From Ectothiorhodospiraceae bacterium (GTDB taxonomy: Bacteria > Pseudomonadota > Gammaproteobacteria > Nitrococcales > Aquisalimonadaceae): a stretch of 64,000 nt of DNA. The DNA lies in the NCBI GenBank assembly GCA_003565775.1, contig PXAT01000161.1, forward strand, positions 1 to 64,000. The letters run 5' to 3'. The notes beneath the pieces were generated by a model. That model did not search any database and was not told where the DNA came from. It saw only the letters and a program-made list of their open reading frames with translations. Of the stretch, positions 50,252 through 61,797 are shown in pieces (the stretch's first letter is position 1; every line of letters begins with the position of its first letter). A program made the translations under genes and the position numbers.

Positions 50252-50449
50252 ATGGCCCAGCCAACCGAGCAGGGGCCCGGCGCTGCCAGCGTCCTGCTGT
50301 TCCTGTTTGCACTGTTCCTGATCGCGTCGCCGTTCGCCACCTGGTGGATGCAGTTGCCGGCGCCCTGGTATGTCCCCTACCTCCTCTGGCTCCTGATCAT
50401 CGGCCTCAGCTGGAACGTGGTCCGTCGCACCCGACGCCATGGAGATTGA
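50252..50449 (+). CDS. Small two-TM membrane protein upstream of and overlapping the SLC5 kinase (CbrX-like position)
   Basis: 65 aa MAQPTEQGPGAASVLLFLFALFLIASPFATWWMQLPAPWYVPYLLWLLIIGLSWNVVRRTRRHGD; overlaps the 50439 start by 11 nt. Confidence 0.75.
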   Translation: MAQPTEQGPGAASVLLFLFALFLIASPFATWWMQLPAPWYVPYLLWLLIIGLSWNVVRRTRRHGD

Positions 50450-53381
50450 TCTCACCACGCTCTCGATCAGTGCCATTCTCTACCTGCTGCTGCTGTTCCT
50501 GATCGCGCATGCAGTTGAGCGGCGCTGGCTGCCGGCCCGGCTGGTACGCCATCCGGCGGTCTACGTCCTGTCGCTGGGCGTCTACGCCACCTCATGGAGC
50601 TACTACGGCAGTGTCGGCTTTGCCGAACAGCAGGGCTTGCTGTTCCTCACCATCTACCTCGGTGTGACCCTCGCGTTCGTGCTGACGCCGGTGCTGCTGA
50701 TGCCGATCCTGCGACTGAGCCGCACCTATCAGCTCACCTCGGTGGCCGATCTGTTCGCGTTCCGCTTCAACAGCCAGCCCGTGGGGGTACTTGTCACCCT
50801 GCTGATGCTGGCCGGCGTGCTGCCCTACATCGCCTTGCAGATCAGGGCGGTGACCGAGTCCACGGTGGTGCTGAGCCAGGATTCGTCGCCGCAGGTTCTG
50901 GCCTTCTGGTTCGTCATCATCGTCAGCCTGTTCGCGATCATTTTCGGCGCCCGTCATGTCACGCCGCGTGAAAAGCATGAAGGCATGGTGGTGGCCATTG
51001 CCTTCGAATCGCTGATGAAACTGCTCGCTCTGCTGCTGGTGACCGGCGTCGCCGTCTACCAGGCATTCGGCGGGCTCGGCGGCATGCAACAACACCTGAG
51101 CGAGAACCCCGAACTGGTGCGTGATCTCTACAAGCCGGCCGGCGAAGGGGCCTGGGCCAGCCTGCTGGTGCTGGCCTTCGCCGCCGGCTTCCTGCTACCG
51201 CGCCAGTTTCACATGCTGTTCACCGAGAACGTGAAACCGCGCCATCTGTATACCGCCAGTTGGGCCTTTCCCCTCTATCTGCTGGCCCTGACGCTGGTCA
51301 TCCCCCCGATCCTCTGGTCGGCCCAGGTGCTGCAGGCGGATACCTCGCCGGACTACCACGTGCTCGGACTGAGCCTGGCCAGCGGTTCGCCGACTCTGGC
51401 CATCATCGCCTATCTCGGCGGTATTTCGGCCGCCAGTGCCATGATCGTGGTGTCGACGCTGGCAATCTCGTCGATGGCTCTCAACCATCTGCTGCTGCCG
51501 ATGGCCGGACTGCAGCCACAGCATGATCTCTACGGTGCGCTGCGCTGGACACGCCGGGCCCTGATTGCCCTGGTGATTGCCGCCGGTTACGTATTCTATC
51601 TGCTGATGGAAGCCGGCACCGGCCTGGTCGGCTGGGGCCTGATTTCGTTTCTTGCCATGGCCCAACTGCTACCGGGCATTCTCGGGCTGCTTTTCTGGTC
51701 GCGCGCCACGGCTCACGGCTTCATCGCCGGCCTGCTCGCCGGCACGGCAGTCTGGGCCCTTACCGCCCTGTTGCCGCCGCTGACCGGGCAGAGCGCGCTG
51801 ACCTGGTTCGGTCTCGCTGCGGACGGCTCGCCCGGCTCGACCGAGATGTACCAGTCGGCCACCTTCTGGTCGCTCAGTCTGAACGCCATCCTGTTCGTGC
51901 TGGTGTCGCTGCTGAGCCGTCAGAGCGAGGCCGAACGGGAAGCCGCCAGCGCCTGCCGGGAACTGACCCCGGCTCTGCCCAGCGGCGATCTGCGTGCGGC
52001 ATCGCCACAGCAATTCATCGACCGACTGGCGGCGGTCATGGGCAACAACACGGCCACCGCCGAAGTCCAGCGCGCACTGAGTGATCTGGGCATGCACCGG
52101 GACGAGGACCGCCCCGGCGCCCTGCATGATCTGCGGGTCCGCATCCAGCGCAATCTGTCCGGCATGATGGGGCCGGTCCTGGCCCGCATGATAGTCGATC
52201 ACCAGCTGGAGCTGCAGACCGTCGACGCCAACGCTCAGGCCCAGAACGTTCGGCTGATCGAGGATCGGCTGGAGACGTCCAGCACACGCCTGCGCGGTCT
52301 CGCGGCGGAGCTGGATCGCCTGCGACGCTATCACCGGCAGATCATCGAGGATCTGCCGGTGGGCGTCTGCGCGCTGGCGCATGGCAACCGGCTGGTGCGC
52401 TGGAATCCGGCCATTGCCCGCCTCACCGGCATACCGCTGGCGGATGTTATCGGTCGTCGCCTGGACGAACTGCCCGCTCCCTGGGGTGCCCTGCTGAACG
52501 AGTTTCTCAATGGCGACGAGGATCACTGGCACAAGCAACAGGTGCAGGAACCCGGGCAGACCCGCTGGTACAGCCTGCACAAGGCAAGCATCGAGGAGCC
52601 GGGACGACACCGCAGCGGTGACACGGTACTGCTGATCGAGGACTTCACCGACCTTCAGGTCCTGGAAAAGGAACTGGCTCACAGCGAGCGCCTGGCATCC
52701 ATCGGCCGGCTGGCCGCAGGGGTCGCGCACGAGATCGGCAACCCCATCACCAGTATCAGCTGCCTGGCCCAGGAACTGCGCGAAGGGGACGACCCGCAGC
52801 AGGCCCGCGACTACGCCGAAGACATCCTCGACCAGGCCCAGCGCATCAACAACATCGTGCAGAGCCTGGTGCGCTATGCCCACGGCGGCAGCCCGCTGTC
52901 GGAAGACCCCCTGCAACCGGTCAATCTGCACGATACCGTGGCCGAAGCGACCCGCCTGACCATGCTCAGCCGCCGGGCACGCGACATGCGTTTCGAGAAC
53001 CGGATCCCGGTGGACATGCAGGTTCGCGCCAAACCGCAGCCTCTGGTGCAGGTCTTCGTCAATCTTTTCAGCAATGCCGCCGATGCCTGTCGCGATCGTG
53101 ACGACGGGCGTGTCAGCCTGAGCAGCGACAGTCAACGGGAACAGGTCTGCATCCGCGTTCGCGACAACGGTTGCGGTATCGAGCCGGGGGCCATGGCGCG
53201 GGTGCTGGAACCGTTCTACACCACCAAACAGCCGGGCAAGGGCACCGGCCTCGGGCTGCCGCTGGTCTACAACATCATCCGCGACTGTGGCGGGCGGCTC
53301 GATATCGACAGCGACGCGAGCGGCACCACCGTCAGTCTGACGCTCAAGCTGGCGTCGGAAGACACGACAGAGGAGGCCTAG
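50439..53381 (+). CDS. cbrA: SLC5/SSS-domain hybrid sensor histidine kinase (CbrA-like)
   Basis: 980 aa; N-terminal sodium:solute symporter domain, PAS, HisKA (SIGRLAAGVAHEIGNPITSI), HATPase (NLFSNAADACRD, RDNGCGIEPG, GKGTGLGLPLV); followed by an NtrC-type regulator. Confidence 0.9.
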   Translation: MEIDLTTLSISAILYLLLLFLIAHAVERRWLPARLVRHPAVYVLSLGVYATSWSYYGSVGFAEQQGLLFLTIYLGVTLAFVLTPVLLMPILRLSRTYQLTSVADLFAFRFNSQPVGVLVTLLMLAGVLPYIALQIRAVTESTVVLSQDSSPQVLAFWFVIIVSLFAIIFGARHVTPREKHEGMVVAIAFESLMKLLALLLVTGVAVYQAFGGLGGMQQHLSENPELVRDLYKPAGEGAWASLLVLAFAAGFLLPRQFHMLFTENVKPRHLYTASWAFPLYLLALTLVIPPILWSAQVLQADTSPDYHVLGLSLASGSPTLAIIAYLGGISAASAMIVVSTLAISSMALNHLLLPMAGLQPQHDLYGALRWTRRALIALVIAAGYVFYLLMEAGTGLVGWGLISFLAMAQLLPGILGLLFWSRATAHGFIAGLLAGTAVWALTALLPPLTGQSALTWFGLAADGSPGSTEMYQSATFWSLSLNAILFVLVSLLSRQSEAEREAASACRELTPALPSGDLRAASPQQFIDRLAAVMGNNTATAEVQRALSDLGMHRDEDRPGALHDLRVRIQRNLSGMMGPVLARMIVDHQLELQTVDANAQAQNVRLIEDRLETSSTRLRGLAAELDRLRRYHRQIIEDLPVGVCALAHGNRLVRWNPAIARLTGIPLADVIGRRLDELPAPWGALLNEFLNGDEDHWHKQQVQEPGQTRWYSLHKASIEEPGRHRSGDTVLLIEDFTDLQVLEKELAHSERLASIGRLAAGVAHEIGNPITSISCLAQELREGDDPQQARDYAEDILDQAQRINNIVQSLVRYAHGGSPLSEDPLQPVNLHDTVAEATRLTMLSRRARDMRFENRIPVDMQVRAKPQPLVQVFVNLFSNAADACRDRDDGRVSLSSDSQREQVCIRVRDNGCGIEPGAMARVLEPFYTTKQPGKGTGLGLPLVYNIIRDCGGRLDIDSDASGTTVSLTLKLASEDTTEEA

Positions 53382-53386
53382 GAATC

Positions 53387-54733
53387 ATGGCACGCATCCT
53401 GGTCATCGAGGACGAAGACATCATCCGTCGGGCACTGCGCCGACTGCTGGAACGCCAGCAACACCGGGTCCAGGACGCCGAATCCATCGAAGAGGCCCGT
53501 GCCTCGTGGGATCTGGCGGGCTTCGACCTGATCATCGCTGACCTGCGCCTGCCCGGAGAACCGGGCACCGCGGTGCTGACGCTGGCCCCCGAGGTACCCA
53601 GTATCATCATGACCAGCTATGCCAGCGTGCGCTCGGCCGTGGAGGCGATGAAACAGGGGGCGGTGGACTACATCGCCAAACCGTTCGACAACGACGAACT
53701 GCTGCTGACCGTGCAGCGCGCACTCAAGGAAAACCGTCTCGAGCGCCAGAACGCGGCACTGCAGGCGGATCTCGAGCGCAACTACCCGGTGGCGGGGATC
53801 GTTGGCAGCTGCGGCGCGATGCAGGACGTGTTCGACCGGATCGGCAAGGTCGCGCCGACCGACACCACGGTGCTGGTCCTCGGCGAATCGGGCACCGGCA
53901 AGGAACTGGTCGCACGCGCGCTGCACGCCAACAGCAAGCGTGCTGATGGCCCCCTGATCGCGGTGAACTGTGCCGCAATCCCGGAATCTCTGATCGAGGC
54001 GGAACTGTTCGGCCACGAGAAAGGCGCCTTCACCGGTGCCGTCGGCATGCGGCAGGGACTGGTCGAGGCTGCCAATGGCGGAACCTTGTTCCTTGACGAA
54101 ATCGGCGAACTGCCGCCGGCCGCGCAGGCGCGTCTGCTGCGCGTGCTGCAGGAAGGCGAGATCCGACGCGTCGGTTCGGCGGCCTCGCGTCAGGTGGACG
54201 TACGACTGGTTGCGGCGACCCATCGCGACCTGGCACGGCTGTCGGAGAGCGGGGAGTTTCGCGAGGACCTCTACTTCCGCATCAACGTCATGGAGATCCG
54301 CTTGCCGCCGCTGCGGGAACGGGGCGAAGACGTGGTCGAACTGGCACGGTTTCTTCTGGAGCGCGGCTGCGAGCGGCTCAATCAGCCGCCGATGCGCTTT
54401 TCCAACGGTGCGCTGGACGCAATCCGCAATTACAGCTGGCCCGGCAATGTGCGCGAACTGGAAAACGCCATCGAACGGGCAGTAATCCTCAGCGACACCA
54501 CCGTGCTGACGCCCGACCTGCTGGGCATGAACGACCGCAGCGCGAACAGTCGGCGGGAGAGTGCGACGCCGGACCTGTCACTGGAAGATTATTTCTGCCA
54601 GTACGTGCGCGAGCACGAAGACACCCTGACCGAGACGGAACTGGCGAGGCGGCTGGGTATCAGTCGCAAGGCGCTGTGGGAAAAACGTCAGAGGCTTGGC
54701 CTTCCACGAGCTCGCAAACAACGACAGACTTGA
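53387..54733 (+). CDS. cbrB: Sigma-54-dependent response regulator (CbrB-like, NtrC family)
   Basis: MARILVIEDEDIIRRALRRLLERQ receiver; GESGTGKELVARALH, ELFGHEKGAFTGAVGMRQGLVEAANGGTLFLDEIGELP; Fis-type HTH ETELARRLGISRKALWEKRQRLGLPR. Confidence 0.9.
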   Translation: MARILVIEDEDIIRRALRRLLERQQHRVQDAESIEEARASWDLAGFDLIIADLRLPGEPGTAVLTLAPEVPSIIMTSYASVRSAVEAMKQGAVDYIAKPFDNDELLLTVQRALKENRLERQNAALQADLERNYPVAGIVGSCGAMQDVFDRIGKVAPTDTTVLVLGESGTGKELVARALHANSKRADGPLIAVNCAAIPESLIEAELFGHEKGAFTGAVGMRQGLVEAANGGTLFLDEIGELPPAAQARLLRVLQEGEIRRVGSAASRQVDVRLVAATHRDLARLSESGEFREDLYFRINVMEIRLPPLRERGEDVVELARFLLERGCERLNQPPMRFSNGALDAIRNYSWPGNVRELENAIERAVILSDTTVLTPDLLGMNDRSANSRRESATPDLSLEDYFCQYVREHEDTLTETELARRLGISRKALWEKRQRLGLPRARKQRQT

Positions 54734-55047: not shown

Positions 55048-56985
55048 ATGGCAGAGAAGATCTATCCGGTTCCGGAAGCCGTTGCCAAGGCTGCTCATAT
55101 TGATCGAGCGGCCTACGAAGAGATGTATCGCCGGTCCATCGAAGACAGGGACAATTTCTGGGCCGAACAGGCCGAGCGCCTGCGCTGGACCAAACGCTGG
55201 GACAAGGTCGACAACTCCGATCTGACCGAGGGCCGGATCAGCTGGTTCGAGGGCGGCAAGCTGAACGTCGCCGACAACTGCCTCGATCGACATGTCGAGA
55301 CGCGCGGTGATCAGACGGCAATCATCTGGGAGCCGGATGATCCGAAAAAGGACGAGGCCCAGCACATCACCTACCGGGATCTGCACGAGCGGGTCTGCCG
55401 GTTCGCCAATGCCCTGAAGGAACATGGCGTCAAGAAGGGTGACCGGGTCTGCATCTATCTGCCCATGATTCCCGAGGCCGCGGTGGCCATGCTGGCCTGT
55501 GCCCGCATCGGCGCCGTCCATTCCATCGTCTTCGGGGGCTTCTCGCCGCAGGCTCTGCAGGACCGGATCCAGAACGCCGACTGTCAGGTGGTGATTACCG
55601 CCGACGAAAGCGCTCGCGGCGGCCGTGCCTTCCCGCTCAAGGCCAATGCCGACGTGGCGCTGGAAGAATGCCCGAACGTCAAGACCATGTTCGTGGTGAA
55701 GCGCACCGGCGGCAACGTGGACTGGACCGAAGGACGTGACGTCTGGTTCCACGAGGCCGTGGCCAAGGTATCCGCCGACTGTCCGGCCGAGGAAATGGAT
55801 GCCGAGGATCCGCTGTTCATCCTCTACACCTCCGGCTCCACCGGCATGCCGAAGGGCGTGCTGCACACCACTGGCGGCTATCTGCTCGGCGCCAGCATGA
55901 CCCACGAGTACATATTCGATTACAAGGATGGCGAGGTCTATTGGTGCACCGCGGATGTCGGCTGGGTCCCCGGCCACACCTACATCGTCTACGGCCCGCT
56001 GGCGAACGGCGCCACCACGCTGATGTTCGAAGGCGTGCCCACCTATCCGGACGCCGGCCGGTTCTGGGACGTGGTGGACAAGCACAAGGTTGCGATCTTC
56101 TACACCGCACCCACCGCAATCCGGGCGCTGATGGGTCAGGGTGACGATTTCGTCAATCGCGCCGATCTCGGCTCGCTGCGCCTGCTGGGCAGCGTGGGTG
56201 AGCCGATCAACCCGGAGGCCTGGGAGTGGTACTACCGGGTGGTCGGTAAGGAACGCTGCCAGATCGTGGACACCTGGTGGCAGACCGAAACCGGTTCGAT
56301 CCTGATCACGCCGCTGCCCGGCGCCACGGATCTCAAGCCGGGCGCAGCCAGCAAGCCGTTCTTCGGTGTCGAACCGCAACTGGTGGACAACGAAGGCAAC
56401 GTGCTGGAGGGCGCCACGTCCGGCAACCTCTGCATCACCCACGCCTGGCCGTCGATGATGCGCACCATCTACGGGGACCATAAGCGGTTCATCGAAACCT
56501 ATCTGTCTGCCTACAAGGGCAAGTACTTCACCGGCGATGGTGCGAGACGCGACGAGGACGGCTACTACTGGATTACCGGCCGCGTCGACGACGTGCTGAA
56601 CGTGTCCGGTCACCGCATGGGCACGGCCGAAATCGAGAGTGCCCTGGTGCTGCATTCCAGCGTGTCCGAGGCCGCCGTGGTCGGGTTCCCGCATGACATC
56701 AAGGGCCAGGGCATCTACGCCTATGTCACCCTGATGGCCGGGCAGGAACCGTCAGACGATCTCAAGCAGGAGCTGGTCGCCATTATCCGCAAGGAAATCG
56801 GCGCCATTGCCAAGCCGGACTTCATTCAGTGGGCACCGGGCCTGCCGAAGACCCGGTCCGGCAAGATCATGCGCCGCATCCTGCGCAAGGTCGCCTGCAA
56901 CGAGCTGGACAGCCTCGGCGACACCAGCACGCTGGCCGACCCTGCAGTGGTCGACGAGCTGATCGAGAATCGCGCCAACCGTTAA
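55048..56985 (+). CDS. acs: Acetyl-CoA synthetase
   Basis: [95 protein letters not shown]. Confidence 0.98.
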
Positions 56986-57016
56986 ATCCGGTGGTGAATC
57001 GACGCATGATCGGTCA

Positions 57017-57050
57017 AACGCCGTGGTTCTCCGGGACCACGGCGTTTTTT
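57017..57050 (+). terminator. Rho-independent terminator of acs
   Basis: AACGCCGTGGT-TCTCCGGG-ACCACGGCGTT followed by TTTT. Confidence 0.88.
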
Positions 57051-57182
57051 CATGTCCGACCGATCGCTGCGCCCGACACGGAAAAACGGTTACCCTTTCC
57101 ATTGCAACGATAAAAAGAACGCCCCCAGCGCATCATCAGAATGCGGGGGCAACCAGCCGCACCGGAGGAGCAGACTGCCATC

Positions 57183-57554
57183 ATGGCCAAACATATCCTG
57201 ATCGTGGATGACGAACCGAACATCGTGCTCTCGCTGGAGTTCCTGATGCGCAAGCGCGGTTACACCGTGACCACCGCGAGCGATGGCGAAGAGGCACTGC
57301 GTCTGGTGGATGAACACAAGCCGGACCTGGTGCTGCTGGATGTCATGATGCCTCGCATGGACGGCTACCAGGTCTGCGAGGTCCTGCGCGGACGCGATGA
57401 TCTCAAGGATCTGCGCATCATCATGCTGACCGCCAAGGGGCGGGACGTGGAGCGGGAAAAGGGACTGTCCATGGGTGCCGACGAATACATCACCAAGCCC
57501 TTCTCCACCCAGGAGGTGGTCACACGGGTCGAGCAGGTACTGGGCGGGGAATGA
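57183..57554 (+). CDS. Single-domain response regulator (receiver only)
   Basis: MAKHILIVDDEPNIVLSLEFLMRKRGY...DLVLLDVMMPRMDGY...MLTAKGRD...YITKPFSTQEVVTRVEQVLGGE; stops directly after the receiver; ATGA overlap with next gene. Confidence 0.92.
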   Translation: MAKHILIVDDEPNIVLSLEFLMRKRGYTVTTASDGEEALRLVDEHKPDLVLLDVMMPRMDGYQVCEVLRGRDDLKDLRIIMLTAKGRDVEREKGLSMGADEYITKPFSTQEVVTRVEQVLGGE

Positions 57555-58753
57555 TCGCCGACTGGCGATGGCCTTTGCTGGCGACCGGCGCCATCCTGGC
57601 GGCGGTGCTGCTCTGGCTGTCACTGGCCATTGCCGGCAATACCGGCTGGCGAACCGCAGGCCTGCTGGCGAGCGGAGTGATCATGGGCGCTCTGCCCTGG
57701 CGGTTTATTGCCCTGCGGCGAGGACGCGCCGAACGTCTGGAAGCGGTGCTGCGCGGTATCCGCGAAGGCGTCATCCTGTGCGACGAGCACGGCACCATCC
57801 TGTTCTGCAATCCGGCGGTCAAGCGCATCCTCGGGGACAACCGGCAGATCCGCCCCGGCGGCTCGCTGTACGGCGTCTGGACGCAGCGGCCCGTGGAACA
57901 GACGCTGCAGTTGCTGCGCCGACGTTGCCAGCGCAATCCGCGCGCAGACCGGCTCACGGAGTTCGTCTGTGCCACACGCGACGACGGCCTGCTGCTTCAC
58001 TGTCGCATGAGCCTGCTGCCCAGCGACTCCATCTGGTCGTCGTGTTTCCTGCTTTCGTTCGACGATATCGGCCGCCAGACCCACGCCCTGGGCCGCCGCG
58101 ATCGCAGTCTGCGCGAAGCGATAACCGCGCTCCGCGCGCCGCTGGCCAGCCTGCGGGCGGCAGCCGAAAATGTGGCGCTGGAGAAGGACCTGAGCGATGA
58201 CGATCGGCAACTGTTCGAGGCCATGATCGTCCGCGAGAGTCGTGAACTCAGCCGTCGTTTCGACTACATGGCAAGCGAAAGCGAAGTGGTGATCGCGGCG
58301 CCGTTCAGCATGGCCGACATCCATTCCAGCGACCTGCTCGCCAGTATCCGGCTGCGACGGGGACCGAGCCTGCCGCGCCTGATGGAACACGGCGAGCCCT
58401 GCTGGCTGCACGCCGAAACCCATTCCCTGAGCCTGATTCTGGATCATCTGCTGAGCCGTCTGCGCCAGGAACACGGGGTACGCGCAGCGCTGCTGCAGGT
58501 GCGGCCCGGCGACCGCCGCGTCTATCTGGAATGCCTCTGGCGCGGACGCCCGATCGCCACCGCGGTGCTCGAGCACTGGCTGACAGAGCCGCTGTGCGGC
58601 ATCAGTGGCTCCACCAACACGCGTGACGTGCTGGAACGGCATGACAGTACCGCCTGGAGCCGACGCCACCCCAGCTATCGCGATGCCGCGCAATTGACCA
58701 TTCCCTTGCCGGCGGCAAGACACCAACGTGAAAGGCTGCTACAGGCGGGATGA
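57551..58753 (+). CDS. Membrane PAS-domain protein with degenerate histidine-kinase region (predicted pseudokinase)
   Basis: 400 aa; two N-terminal TMs, PAS (EAVLRGIREGVILCDEHGTILFCNPAVKRILG), H-box-like ITALRAPLASLRAAAENV without His, no recognizable N- or G-boxes. Confidence 0.7.
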   Translation: MIADWRWPLLATGAILAAVLLWLSLAIAGNTGWRTAGLLASGVIMGALPWRFIALRRGRAERLEAVLRGIREGVILCDEHGTILFCNPAVKRILGDNRQIRPGGSLYGVWTQRPVEQTLQLLRRRCQRNPRADRLTEFVCATRDDGLLLHCRMSLLPSDSIWSSCFLLSFDDIGRQTHALGRRDRSLREAITALRAPLASLRAAAENVALEKDLSDDDRQLFEAMIVRESRELSRRFDYMASESEVVIAAPFSMADIHSSDLLASIRLRRGPSLPRLMEHGEPCWLHAETHSLSLILDHLLSRLRQEHGVRAALLQVRPGDRRVYLECLWRGRPIATAVLEHWLTEPLCGISGSTNTRDVLERHDSTAWSRRHPSYRDAAQLTIPLPAARHQRERLLQAG

Positions 58754-58808: not shown

Positions 58809-59036
58809 ATGAGTGAGCAGCCCGGCCGGATACGAGAACGACTGATCGTGCTGGTGCTGCTCGGCGCCATCGCCTTCAACTTTCCGATCCTGGCCCTGTT
58901 TGCAAGGGAGGGGCAGATCGCCGGGATCCCGTTGCTGGTGATCTACCTGTTCCTCGCCTGGGCCGTTTTCATCGTCGCCACCTGGTGGATCGTCGGGCGC
59001 CGACCGAGAGAACGGACAACGCGGGGCCAGCGCTGA
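58809..59036 (+). CDS. Small two-TM membrane protein directly upstream of the SLC5 kinase
   Basis: MSEQPGRIRERLIVLVLLGAIAFNFPILALFAREGQIAGIPLLVIYLFLAWAVFIVATWWIVGRRPRERTTRGQR; stop one nt before the next ATG. Confidence 0.8.
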   Translation: MSEQPGRIRERLIVLVLLGAIAFNFPILALFAREGQIAGIPLLVIYLFLAWAVFIVATWWIVGRRPRERTTRGQR

Positions 59037-59037
59037 C

Positions 59038-61797
59038 ATGCCGCCATGGATTTTCCTGCTCGCTCCGTTCCTGTATCTGGCGCTGTTGTTTGCCATCGCT
59101 TATATGGCAGACCGGCGCGCTTACACCGCCCGTTCGCTGGTCAACAACCCGTACGTCTACACCCTGAGTATCGCCGTCTACTGCACGGCCTGGACCTTTT
59201 ACGGCAGTGTCGGCCGCGCCGCCGAGGATGGCGTCAGCTTCCTCACCATCTACCTCGGGCCGACACTGATGGCAGGCCTCTGGTGGATCGTGTTGCGCAA
59301 GATGATTCGTATCAGCAAGGTACACCGGATCACGTCGATCGCCGACTTCATCGCGTCGCGATACGGCAAGAGCATGCTGCTGGGGGGCCTGGCGACCTTC
59401 ATTGCGGTGATCGGCATCATTCCCTACATCGCGCTGCAGCTTAAAGCGGTGTCTGCGAGCTTCGACGTGCTACTGAGCTTCCCGGACGCGGCGCCCCCCG
59501 GCGATGTCGGTATCCTGCAGGACAAGGCGCTCTGGGTCGCCGCTCTGCTGGCCTTGTTCAGCATTCTGTTCGGCACCCGCCACATCGACACCACGGAGCG
59601 GCTCGAAGGCATGGTGGTGGCGGTGGCCTTCGAGTCCGTGATCAAGCTGCTGGCGTTTCTCGCGGTCGGCGTGTTCGTCACTTTCATGCTGTTCAACGGT
59701 CCGGCCGACCTGTTCGGTCAGGCCTCGGCCGTGCCGGCAGTCGGCGAGTTGCTGTCCTTTTCCGGCCTGCCCGGCGGTTACGGCAACTGGATGGCACTGA
59801 CCCTGTTGTCGATGGCCGCGATCCTGTTTCTTCCGCGGCAGTTCCAGGTCACGGTGGTGGAGAATGTCAATGAAGACCACCTGCGCACAGCCGCCTGGCT
59901 GTTTCCCCTCTACCTGCTGCTGATCAACCTGTTCGTGCTGCCGATCGCGATAGCGGGGTTGCTGTATTTCGGTGACGGCCAGGTGGATCCGGACAACTTC
60001 GTGCTGGCCCTGCCACTGGCCGAGGGACGGGAGATGCTCGCTCTGTTCGTCTATCTCGGCGGGTTTTCGGCGGCGACGGGCATGGTCATCGTCGCCTCCA
60101 TCGCGCTGGCCATCATGGTCAGTAACGATCTGCTGATGCCGGGCATCCTGCGCCTGCGCAACCGGCAGTTGCTGCAACGGGTCAATTTGCAGCGACTGAT
60201 CATCAACCTGCGCCGGGTGGTGATCGTCGCCGTCCTGCTGCTGGGCTACATGTATTTCCGGCTGATTGCAGATGCGTATGCGCTGGTGAGCATCGGCCTG
60301 ATTTCGTTTGTCGCGGTGGCCCAGTTCGCGCCGCCGATCCTGATCGGCATGTACTGGAAGGGCGCCAGCCGACTGGGCGCCCTGCTCGGCCTGACTGCCG
60401 GTTTCCTGATCTGGGCGTACACCCTGATGCTGCCGTCGCTGGTGGAGCCTGGCTGGCTGCCGGCCAGCTTCACCGACAGTGGCATCCCTGGTGCCGAGTG
60501 GCTGCACCCTTATCAACTGTTCGGTCTGACCGGAATGAACCCGATCACGCACGCCCTGTTCTGGTCGTGGCTGTTCAATATCGGCCTGCTGGTGACGGTC
60601 TCGGTGTTCGGCCGACAGACCGCCATCGAACGGATTCAGGCGGCGCTGTTCGTGGACGCCTTTCTGCGCTCCGAGCGGGATGTGCGCTTCTGGCAGGGCA
60701 CCACCAGCGTCAGCGATCTCGAGACCCTGCTGGCACGTTTCGTCGGTCCGAGCCAGGCGGCCAGCACCATCCGTCACTACAGTCGCGACGGCCGCAAGCA
60801 GCTGCGAGGCAATGATCAGGTACCGGCGGATCTGCTGAATCAGGCTGAACGGCTGCTGGCCGGCACCATCGGTTCGTCCTCGGCGCGGGTGCTGGTGTCC
60901 TCCATCGTCAAGGGCGAAGCCTTGACCATGGAGGGTGTCATGGAACTGCTCGACGCCACCTCGCGGGCCATCGAATACAGCCACCGACTGGAGGAAAAAT
61001 CCCAGGAACTGGAGCAGGCCACCAGCGAACTGCGGGCGGCCAACGAGCGGCTGCAGGAACTGGACCGGTTGAAGGACGAGTTCGTCTCCATGGTCAGTCA
61101 CGAACTGCGGACGCCACTTACCTCGATACGCGCATTCGCCGAAATCCTGCAGGATGACGCCGATATATCACGGGAGCAGCAGGAGGAGTTTCTCAGCGTG
61201 ATCGTCGCCGAGAGCGAACGGCTGACGCGACTGATCAACCAGGTGCTGGACCTGTCCAAGATCGAGAGCGGCTGGGGCGAATGGCGCCTGCGGGACCTGG
61301 AACTGGGCGAGATCATCGAAGTGGCACGGCGGGCCACCTCACAACTGTTCAGTGACAGCAACGTCGGCTTGAAAATGCACGATCCCGGCATCCCCTGCAA
61401 CATCAAGGGCGATGCCGATCGCCTGATCCAGCTGGTCATCAATCTGCTGTCCAACGCCGTGAAATTTACCGACCCCGCGGCCGGCGACGTGGAGATTTCC
61501 TGGGACCGGACGGCTCGCGGCATCGAACTGCGGGTGCGGGATCGTGGCCCCGGCATCGCCCCGGAAGAACAGGAAAGGATCTTCGAGAAGTTCCACCAGA
61601 TCAGCGACCAGCAGGCCGGCAAGCCCAAGGGTAGCGGCCTTGGTCTGGCGATCTGTCGGCGCATTGCCGAGCTGCACTGGGGTCATGTGCGACTGGAGAG
61701 TCAGCCCGGCGAGGGTGCGACCTTCATCGTGCTGCTGCCCGAGGCCGGCGGTGACCATTGCGACGTACAGACGGATGGCCGGCGCAGCGAAAGCTGA
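59038..61797 (+). CDS. SLC5/SSS-domain hybrid sensor histidine kinase (CrbS/MxtR-like)
   Basis: 919 aa; N-terminal sodium:solute symporter domain; HisKA DEFVSMVSHELRTPLTSIRAFAEIL; NLLSNAVKF, RDRGPGIAPEEQERIFEKFHQ, GSGLGLAIC; next to acs. Confidence 0.9.
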   Translation: MPPWIFLLAPFLYLALLFAIAYMADRRAYTARSLVNNPYVYTLSIAVYCTAWTFYGSVGRAAEDGVSFLTIYLGPTLMAGLWWIVLRKMIRISKVHRITSIADFIASRYGKSMLLGGLATFIAVIGIIPYIALQLKAVSASFDVLLSFPDAAPPGDVGILQDKALWVAALLALFSILFGTRHIDTTERLEGMVVAVAFESVIKLLAFLAVGVFVTFMLFNGPADLFGQASAVPAVGELLSFSGLPGGYGNWMALTLLSMAAILFLPRQFQVTVVENVNEDHLRTAAWLFPLYLLLINLFVLPIAIAGLLYFGDGQVDPDNFVLALPLAEGREMLALFVYLGGFSAATGMVIVASIALAIMVSNDLLMPGILRLRNRQLLQRVNLQRLIINLRRVVIVAVLLLGYMYFRLIADAYALVSIGLISFVAVAQFAPPILIGMYWKGASRLGALLGLTAGFLIWAYTLMLPSLVEPGWLPASFTDSGIPGAEWLHPYQLFGLTGMNPITHALFWSWLFNIGLLVTVSVFGRQTAIERIQAALFVDAFLRSERDVRFWQGTTSVSDLETLLARFVGPSQAASTIRHYSRDGRKQLRGNDQVPADLLNQAERLLAGTIGSSSARVLVSSIVKGEALTMEGVMELLDATSRAIEYSHRLEEKSQELEQATSELRAANERLQELDRLKDEFVSMVSHELRTPLTSIRAFAEILQDDADISREQQEEFLSVIVAESERLTRLINQVLDLSKIESGWGEWRLRDLELGEIIEVARRATSQLFSDSNVGLKMHDPGIPCNIKGDADRLIQLVINLLSNAVKFTDPAAGDVEISWDRTARGIELRVRDRGPGIAPEEQERIFEKFHQISDQQAGKPKGSGLGLAICRRIAELHWGHVRLESQPGEGATFIVLLPEAGGDHCDVQTDGRRSES

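Follow-up and report, generated by a model that had tools for sequence, protein, structure and literature searches.

Pseudo-histidine-kinases are known one by one, as in the cases of DivL of Caulobacter and RocA of group A Streptococcus. DivL reads DivK~P with neither kinase nor phosphatase activity, and its residue R553 is needed for DivK~P binding (PMC4211667). RocA is a membrane pseudokinase that is accessory to an active sensor kinase and paired with CovS (PMC7028121). A further described system is the PP_0353/PP_0354 operon of P. putida, which belongs to the MxtR/ErdR targets; PP_0354 is a direct ErdR target, and PP_0353, described only as a putative exonuclease of the RNase_T family, is needed for normal growth on pyruvate (PMC9927547). 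A described family combining PAS, kinase and DEDDh-exonuclease parts was not found in the open-access papers searched. Pseudo-histidine-kinases as such are already known; the nuclease-fused family is apparently undescribed, and the exonuclease-less form analysed here appears as a variant of that family.

The window, i.e. the whole stretch of 64,000 nucleotides that was analysed, comes from a soda-lake-type bacterium. It contains an ORF at 57551-58753 (+) of 400 aa, the boundaries of which are exactly those given in a preliminary description made from the sequence alone. The features of the locus are as follows:

55048..56985, +, acetyl-CoA synthetase (acs), upstream of the receiver (Pfam)
57183..57554, +, single-domain receiver (REC) (Pfam)
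57551..58753, +, 400-aa PAS/pseudo-histidine-kinase protein; HAMP and the C-terminal exonuclease of its relatives missing
57569..57640, +, TM helix 1, residues ~7-30 (hydropathy; helix in the AlphaFold model, low pLDDT)
57650..57709, +, probable TM helix 2, residues ~34-53, running straight into PAS (hydropathy; comparison with relatives; model of a full-length relative)
57731..58066, +, PAS domain, residues 61-172 (Pfam, AlphaFold model, conserved-column test)
58067..58294, +, DHp-like two-helix hairpin, residues 173-248 (model, VicK profile match, Foldseek)
58124..58126, +, Thr192 codon, the phospho-acceptor His position (VicK alignment, family tally)
58313..58714, +, CA/HATPase-like domain, degenerate, residues 255-388; N-box Asn, G1 Asp, G2 and ATP lid missing (model, VicK alignment, family tally)
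58538..58540, +, Trp330 codon, the G1 Asp position (family tally)
58809..59036, +, small membrane protein, 75 aa, conserved in this operon place
59038..61797, +, SSS/CrbS-type sensor kinase with intact HisKA and HATPase_c (Pfam, synteny)

The window protein resembles DivL in joining a PAS domain to a DHp-CA fold without kinase activity, in having a single-domain receiver as its likely partner and in the presence of an active kinase nearby in the circuit. Unlike the window protein, for which receiver binding is predicted, DivL has a Tyr at the His position and a better preserved CA domain, and its case involves no nuclease-bearing relatives. Like RocA (PMC7028121), it is a membrane pseudokinase, and it may be accessory to an active sensor kinase. 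In RocA, however, a His is retained, though dispensable, and six TMs are predicted; RocA is not known to have a receiver operon of this kind. The PP_0353/PP_0354 operon pairs a DEDDh-type exonuclease with a CBS-domain protein in acetate/pyruvate regulation (PMC9927547), whereas the window protein represents the opposite half, without the nuclease. What the relatives of the window protein add to these cases is a whole family, spread over several phyla, with uniform catalytic loss, an invariant Trp for the G1 Asp, a receiver as gene partner and probably a nuclease as its output.

Histidine-kinase fold and catalytic residues

The preliminary description had placed TMs, a PAS domain and a HisKA-like helix in this order, as is borne out here. 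The PAS domain is significant in Pfam (PF00989, E 4.7e-7, residues 61-173), the best 19-residue Kyte-Doolittle means reveal a clear TM1 (2.42) and a weaker TM2 (1.55), and the motif quoted for the helix lies at the place given. Pfam returned only a sub-threshold match to HisKA (E 0.034) and no match to HATPase in the window protein. Profile A3, built from 22 relatives (345 positions) and searched against PDB sequences, matched the sensor kinase VicK (4i5s) over positions 2-334 of the 345, spanning PAS, DHp and CA, with an E value of 4e-10. The AlphaFold (AF2) single-chain model, with a mean pLDDT of 80 and core blocks mostly at 80-97, consists of the PAS domain, helices 173-210 and 216-248 (DHp) and a Bergerat-like domain. 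The topology after the DHp, strand-helix-strand-strand-helix-strand-strand-helix-helix-strand-strand, is, in our reading of the model, that of a Bergerat domain with a reduced lid. The best Foldseek matches of the model are nearly all histidine kinases or their relatives (probability 1.00), including the pseudokinase DivL (4q20, 20% identity); overall TM-scores are low (0.25-0.37 by query length), presumably because the domains are placed differently. The comparison with HisKA-HATPase folds that had been proposed as a check was thus passed, as evidenced in the VicK profile match, the modelled DHp hairpin with its CA-like alpha/beta sandwich and the Foldseek matches to histidine kinases. The window protein has a histidine-kinase fold and is a pseudo-histidine-kinase, in support of the preliminary description, whose adaptor or receptor role for the protein is a putative one.

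The absence of a His at the H position, of the N-box Asn and of DxGxG/GxGLGL, as noted from the sequence at the outset, was confirmed in alignment to VicK. Thr192 occupies the phospho-His position, and the next residue is Ala193 in place of the Glu of HisKA; Arg303 replaces the N-box Asn and Trp330 the G1 Asp, with no GxGLGL after it. The acceptor His, N-box Asn, G1 Asp and G2 of an active HisKA-type histidine kinase are therefore all absent from the window protein. A tally of 52 aligned members extends this to the family. The acceptor position is occupied by E (29), R (10), D (6), Q (3) or single other residues and by His in 0/52, while the position of the metal-binding Asn of the N-box is mostly R, H or Q and, among the residues listed for the 52 members, never a functional Asn. 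The G1 Asp position, readable in 51 rows, is Trp in every one of them. Homologues with a catalytic His had been named as evidence that would speak against a pseudokinase; none of the 52 aligned has the acceptor His, and relocation of a catalytic His was rejected, as the His that three members carry a few residues ahead of the acceptor position is not conserved. Since the His, N-box and G1 losses are shared across the family, catalysis was lost in the family ancestor and not in the window gene. Fixed as they are in 52 aligned members, the losses are not due to chance, and the window protein and its relatives are a pseudo-histidine-kinase family, uniformly without catalysis. Retained are the Gly two residues past the G1 position (G332) and a late His (H364), which from the VicK alignment would correspond to the His of the usual HGG motif, as well as an Arg at His+3 (R195), kept in 51/52 members. 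The fixed Trp at the G1 position may fill the former ATP pocket.

Exonuclease and HAMP loss, and constraint on the remaining protein

A fusion of related N-termini to DEDDh exonucleases near SSS/CrbS-type kinases, mentioned in the preliminary description, proved to be the rule in the family: 50 of the 51 other aligned members carry a C-terminal RNase_T/DEDDh-type domain in frame, and in the remaining one (G032) the exonuclease lies behind a frame break. At that locus (L032, G032:C1), the break ahead of the exonuclease is either a sequencing error or the mark of a young pseudogene. Alone among the aligned members, the window protein lacks the domain and, as had been stated, ends without an exonuclease: the stop codon stands directly after the last conserved motif of the core, followed by a 55-base gap and a small membrane ORF, an arrangement close to that in Methylonatrum. 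A search for an orphan copy of such a nuclease found none at the locus or in the rest of the genome, in which the best match is a full-length paralogue. Also missing is the HAMP/linker of ~80 aa between TM2 and PAS, which forms the TM2-HAMP helices in the structure model of a full-length relative. Both are clean domain losses without frame damage. The PAS/pseudokinase/DEDDh proteins of Methylonatrum, Halorhodospira and relatives are direct orthologues in the same operon place, with 62-63% identity between the window protein and the Methylonatrum-type orthologues over PAS and core. They keep the HAMP and exonuclease domains, with DEDDh residues nearly always intact, whereas the window protein has neither domain. 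The window protein is a derived, trimmed form of the PAS/pseudokinase/DEDDh-exonuclease family that has lost HAMP and the whole nuclease.

Surveys at three levels (order, 54 genomes; class, 369; phylum, 398) yielded no second exonuclease-less member. Other short forms were set aside: the frames of G003, G145 and G262 run into contig ends, that of G032 is broken, and a 645-aa frame of G502 was left out. Nuclease decay takes another form in the G011 orthologue (L019/L088, G011:C123, ~L088:6536-7054), in which the nuclease part is present and the ExoI Asp and Glu, ExoII Asp and ExoIII His are lost, with the pseudokinase core retained. A third sign is the replacement of the ExoIII His by Arg in Candidatus Desulfobia pelagia (L074). 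Judged from these sequences, nuclease function was lost at least twice, probably three times, while the pseudokinase core was kept.

Constraint was assessed on columns conserved at at least 90% in members other than the window protein, G011 and L074. The window protein retains 5/5 such columns in DHp, 15/17 in CA and 11/19 in PAS (8/19 lost), and the family GLGRS motif of its PAS domain reads RPGGS; the corresponding figures for G011 are 5/5, 14/17 and 10/19. Two close relatives with intact nuclease retain 14/19 and 15/19 PAS columns, so that drift in PAS lacks specificity. For the window branch against its sister, the relative-rate ratios (ranges from 30 bootstrap replicates) are 2.6 (1.5-5.0) for the pseudokinase core, 2.4 (1.6-4.2) for the SSS part of the neighbouring kinase and 1.0 (0.5-2.1) for the kinase catalytic part, with 4.8 (2.5-12.5) for PAS and 3.9 (1.6-9.9) for REC. 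The dN/dS of the core to the nearest relative is ~0.35 with dS near saturation, compared to 0.06 between sister species; the ORF is intact, and its GC3 (0.77-0.84) is like that of its neighbours. Rates and dN/dS speak for selection that continued but was somewhat changed, and do not date the loss. The faster PAS and REC on this lineage could reflect relaxed constraint.

Operon context and possible roles of the dead core

The receiver has its acidic pair, phospho-Asp, Thr and Lys all in place. Translational coupling of the two genes is plausible because the ATG of the pseudokinase gene overlaps the receiver TGA (ATGA, 57551-57554, 4 bases), and kinase 59038 is the likely phosphate donor of the receiver. 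From Gammaproteobacteria to Nitrospirota and Desulfobacterota, the pseudokinase gene is immediately preceded by a receiver gene. The full order of REC, PAS/pseudokinase/exonuclease, small TM protein and SSS-type kinase is kept in Ectothiorhodospiraceae, Nitrospirota and one Desulfobacterota MAG. Several phyla also retain, between the pseudokinase/exonuclease gene and the SSS kinase, the 75-aa membrane protein, for which neither Pfam nor NCBIfam gives a significant match. Pfam reports no SSF in the window kinase; the SSS-like label of the kinase N-terminus rests on 28-30% matches of an ActP query in L068, L070, L072 and L074.

By analogy, an arrangement similar to DivK-DivL-CckA, with a dead core that would read the phosphorylated receiver and act on the kinase, is the reading we tentatively prefer, at slightly less than an even chance. 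The active SSS-type kinase (59038) would phosphorylate the single-domain receiver (57183), which would then dock on the catalytically dead DHp-like bundle; unable to add or remove phosphate, the bundle would serve as a reader. In relatives, the reading would be passed on to the attached nuclease. In the window protein, which has none, the bound state would most likely feed back on the neighbouring kinase or buffer the receiver, so tuning the acetate response to which the operon is presumably linked. This receiver-reading model is favoured by the histidine-kinase fold with DivL among its structural matches, the lack of the acceptor His in all 52 members, the stand-alone REC with all phosphorylation residues, the gene overlap and conserved adjacency, by the core columns kept both here, with the nuclease gone, and in G011, with a dead one, and by the dN/dS of ~0.35. 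R195 appears, from its position, to stand at the place of DivL R553; an Arg at His+3 is common to many HisKA domains and for this reason lends docking weak support. Against the model, PAS and REC evolve faster on the window lineage than the kinase catalytic part, and the CA domain of DivL is better preserved than in the window family.

Another possibility, rather unlikely in our estimate, is a RocA-like modulator, in which the dead core would form TM/DHp contacts with the neighbouring SSS-type kinase in the membrane and, thus paired, shift the kinase/phosphatase balance of the latter, the receiver not being a ligand. An intact sensor kinase in the same operon would suit such a role; however, it is the receiver gene and not the kinase gene that is tightly linked to and overlaps the pseudokinase gene, and the lineage has an accelerated receiver without matching acceleration in the catalytic region of the kinase. 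The gene may instead be a remnant on its way out, functionless and drifting since the nuclease was lost, with the full-length paralogue at C128 doing the work. The singular exonuclease-less state, the PAS losses, the dN/dS of the core and the paralogue itself are in keeping with this, but the ORF is intact with the GC3 of its neighbours, dN/dS is well below 1, the DHp and CA columns are largely retained, two domains left cleanly with the frame undamaged, and the core is not accelerated beyond the SSS part of the kinase next to it (2.6 and 2.4), and we consider decay unlikely. It is most improbable that the nuclease part was merely dropped from the contig by assembly or binning: the genome is a draft of 215 contigs with 2.1% contamination, but such an artefact would have to account for two separate clean losses in one gene, for a stop right behind the last conserved motif, for a downstream gap and small ORF much as in Methylonatrum, and for the fact that no such nuclease occurs as an orphan at another place in the genome.

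The absence of the nuclease from the window protein points to a separate role for the dead kinase body in controlling acetate use. It is possible, if doubtful, that a dead histidine kinase that reads a phosphorylated receiver and controls an attached nuclease in acetate regulation is a widespread module, from which the nuclease has here been discarded to leave a pure signalling adaptor. If so, the window lineage is a natural domain-removal experiment. Members without a working nuclease provide a way to trace the regulatory function to one or another part of the protein. The family would also offer a testable explanation for the presence of a DEDDh-type exonuclease in the acetate/pyruvate regulon (PMC9927547).

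Several neighbouring genes were recorded in addition. In the same genus (G001:C24), DUF294/CBS and SSS transporter genes lie between acs and REC; they are absent from the window (56986-57182), and no orthologue of the two genes of that place was found in the window genome. A link between the absence of the nuclease and that of the DUF294/CBS neighbour is suggestive only, as G005 and G008 lack that orthologue yet keep the nuclease. The full-length paralogue of the same genome (C128) lies beside DUF294/CBS and ActP-like genes. Separately from it, at L037 (G000:C165, 1306-3389, -) of the same genome, a DUF294/CBS gene overlaps a short DEDDh-type exonuclease gene, like PP_0354/PP_0353. At 50439-54733, the window itself encodes another SSS-like sensor kinase, which contains PAS; a sigma54-type response regulator comes next, and the architecture resembles that of CbrA/CbrB.
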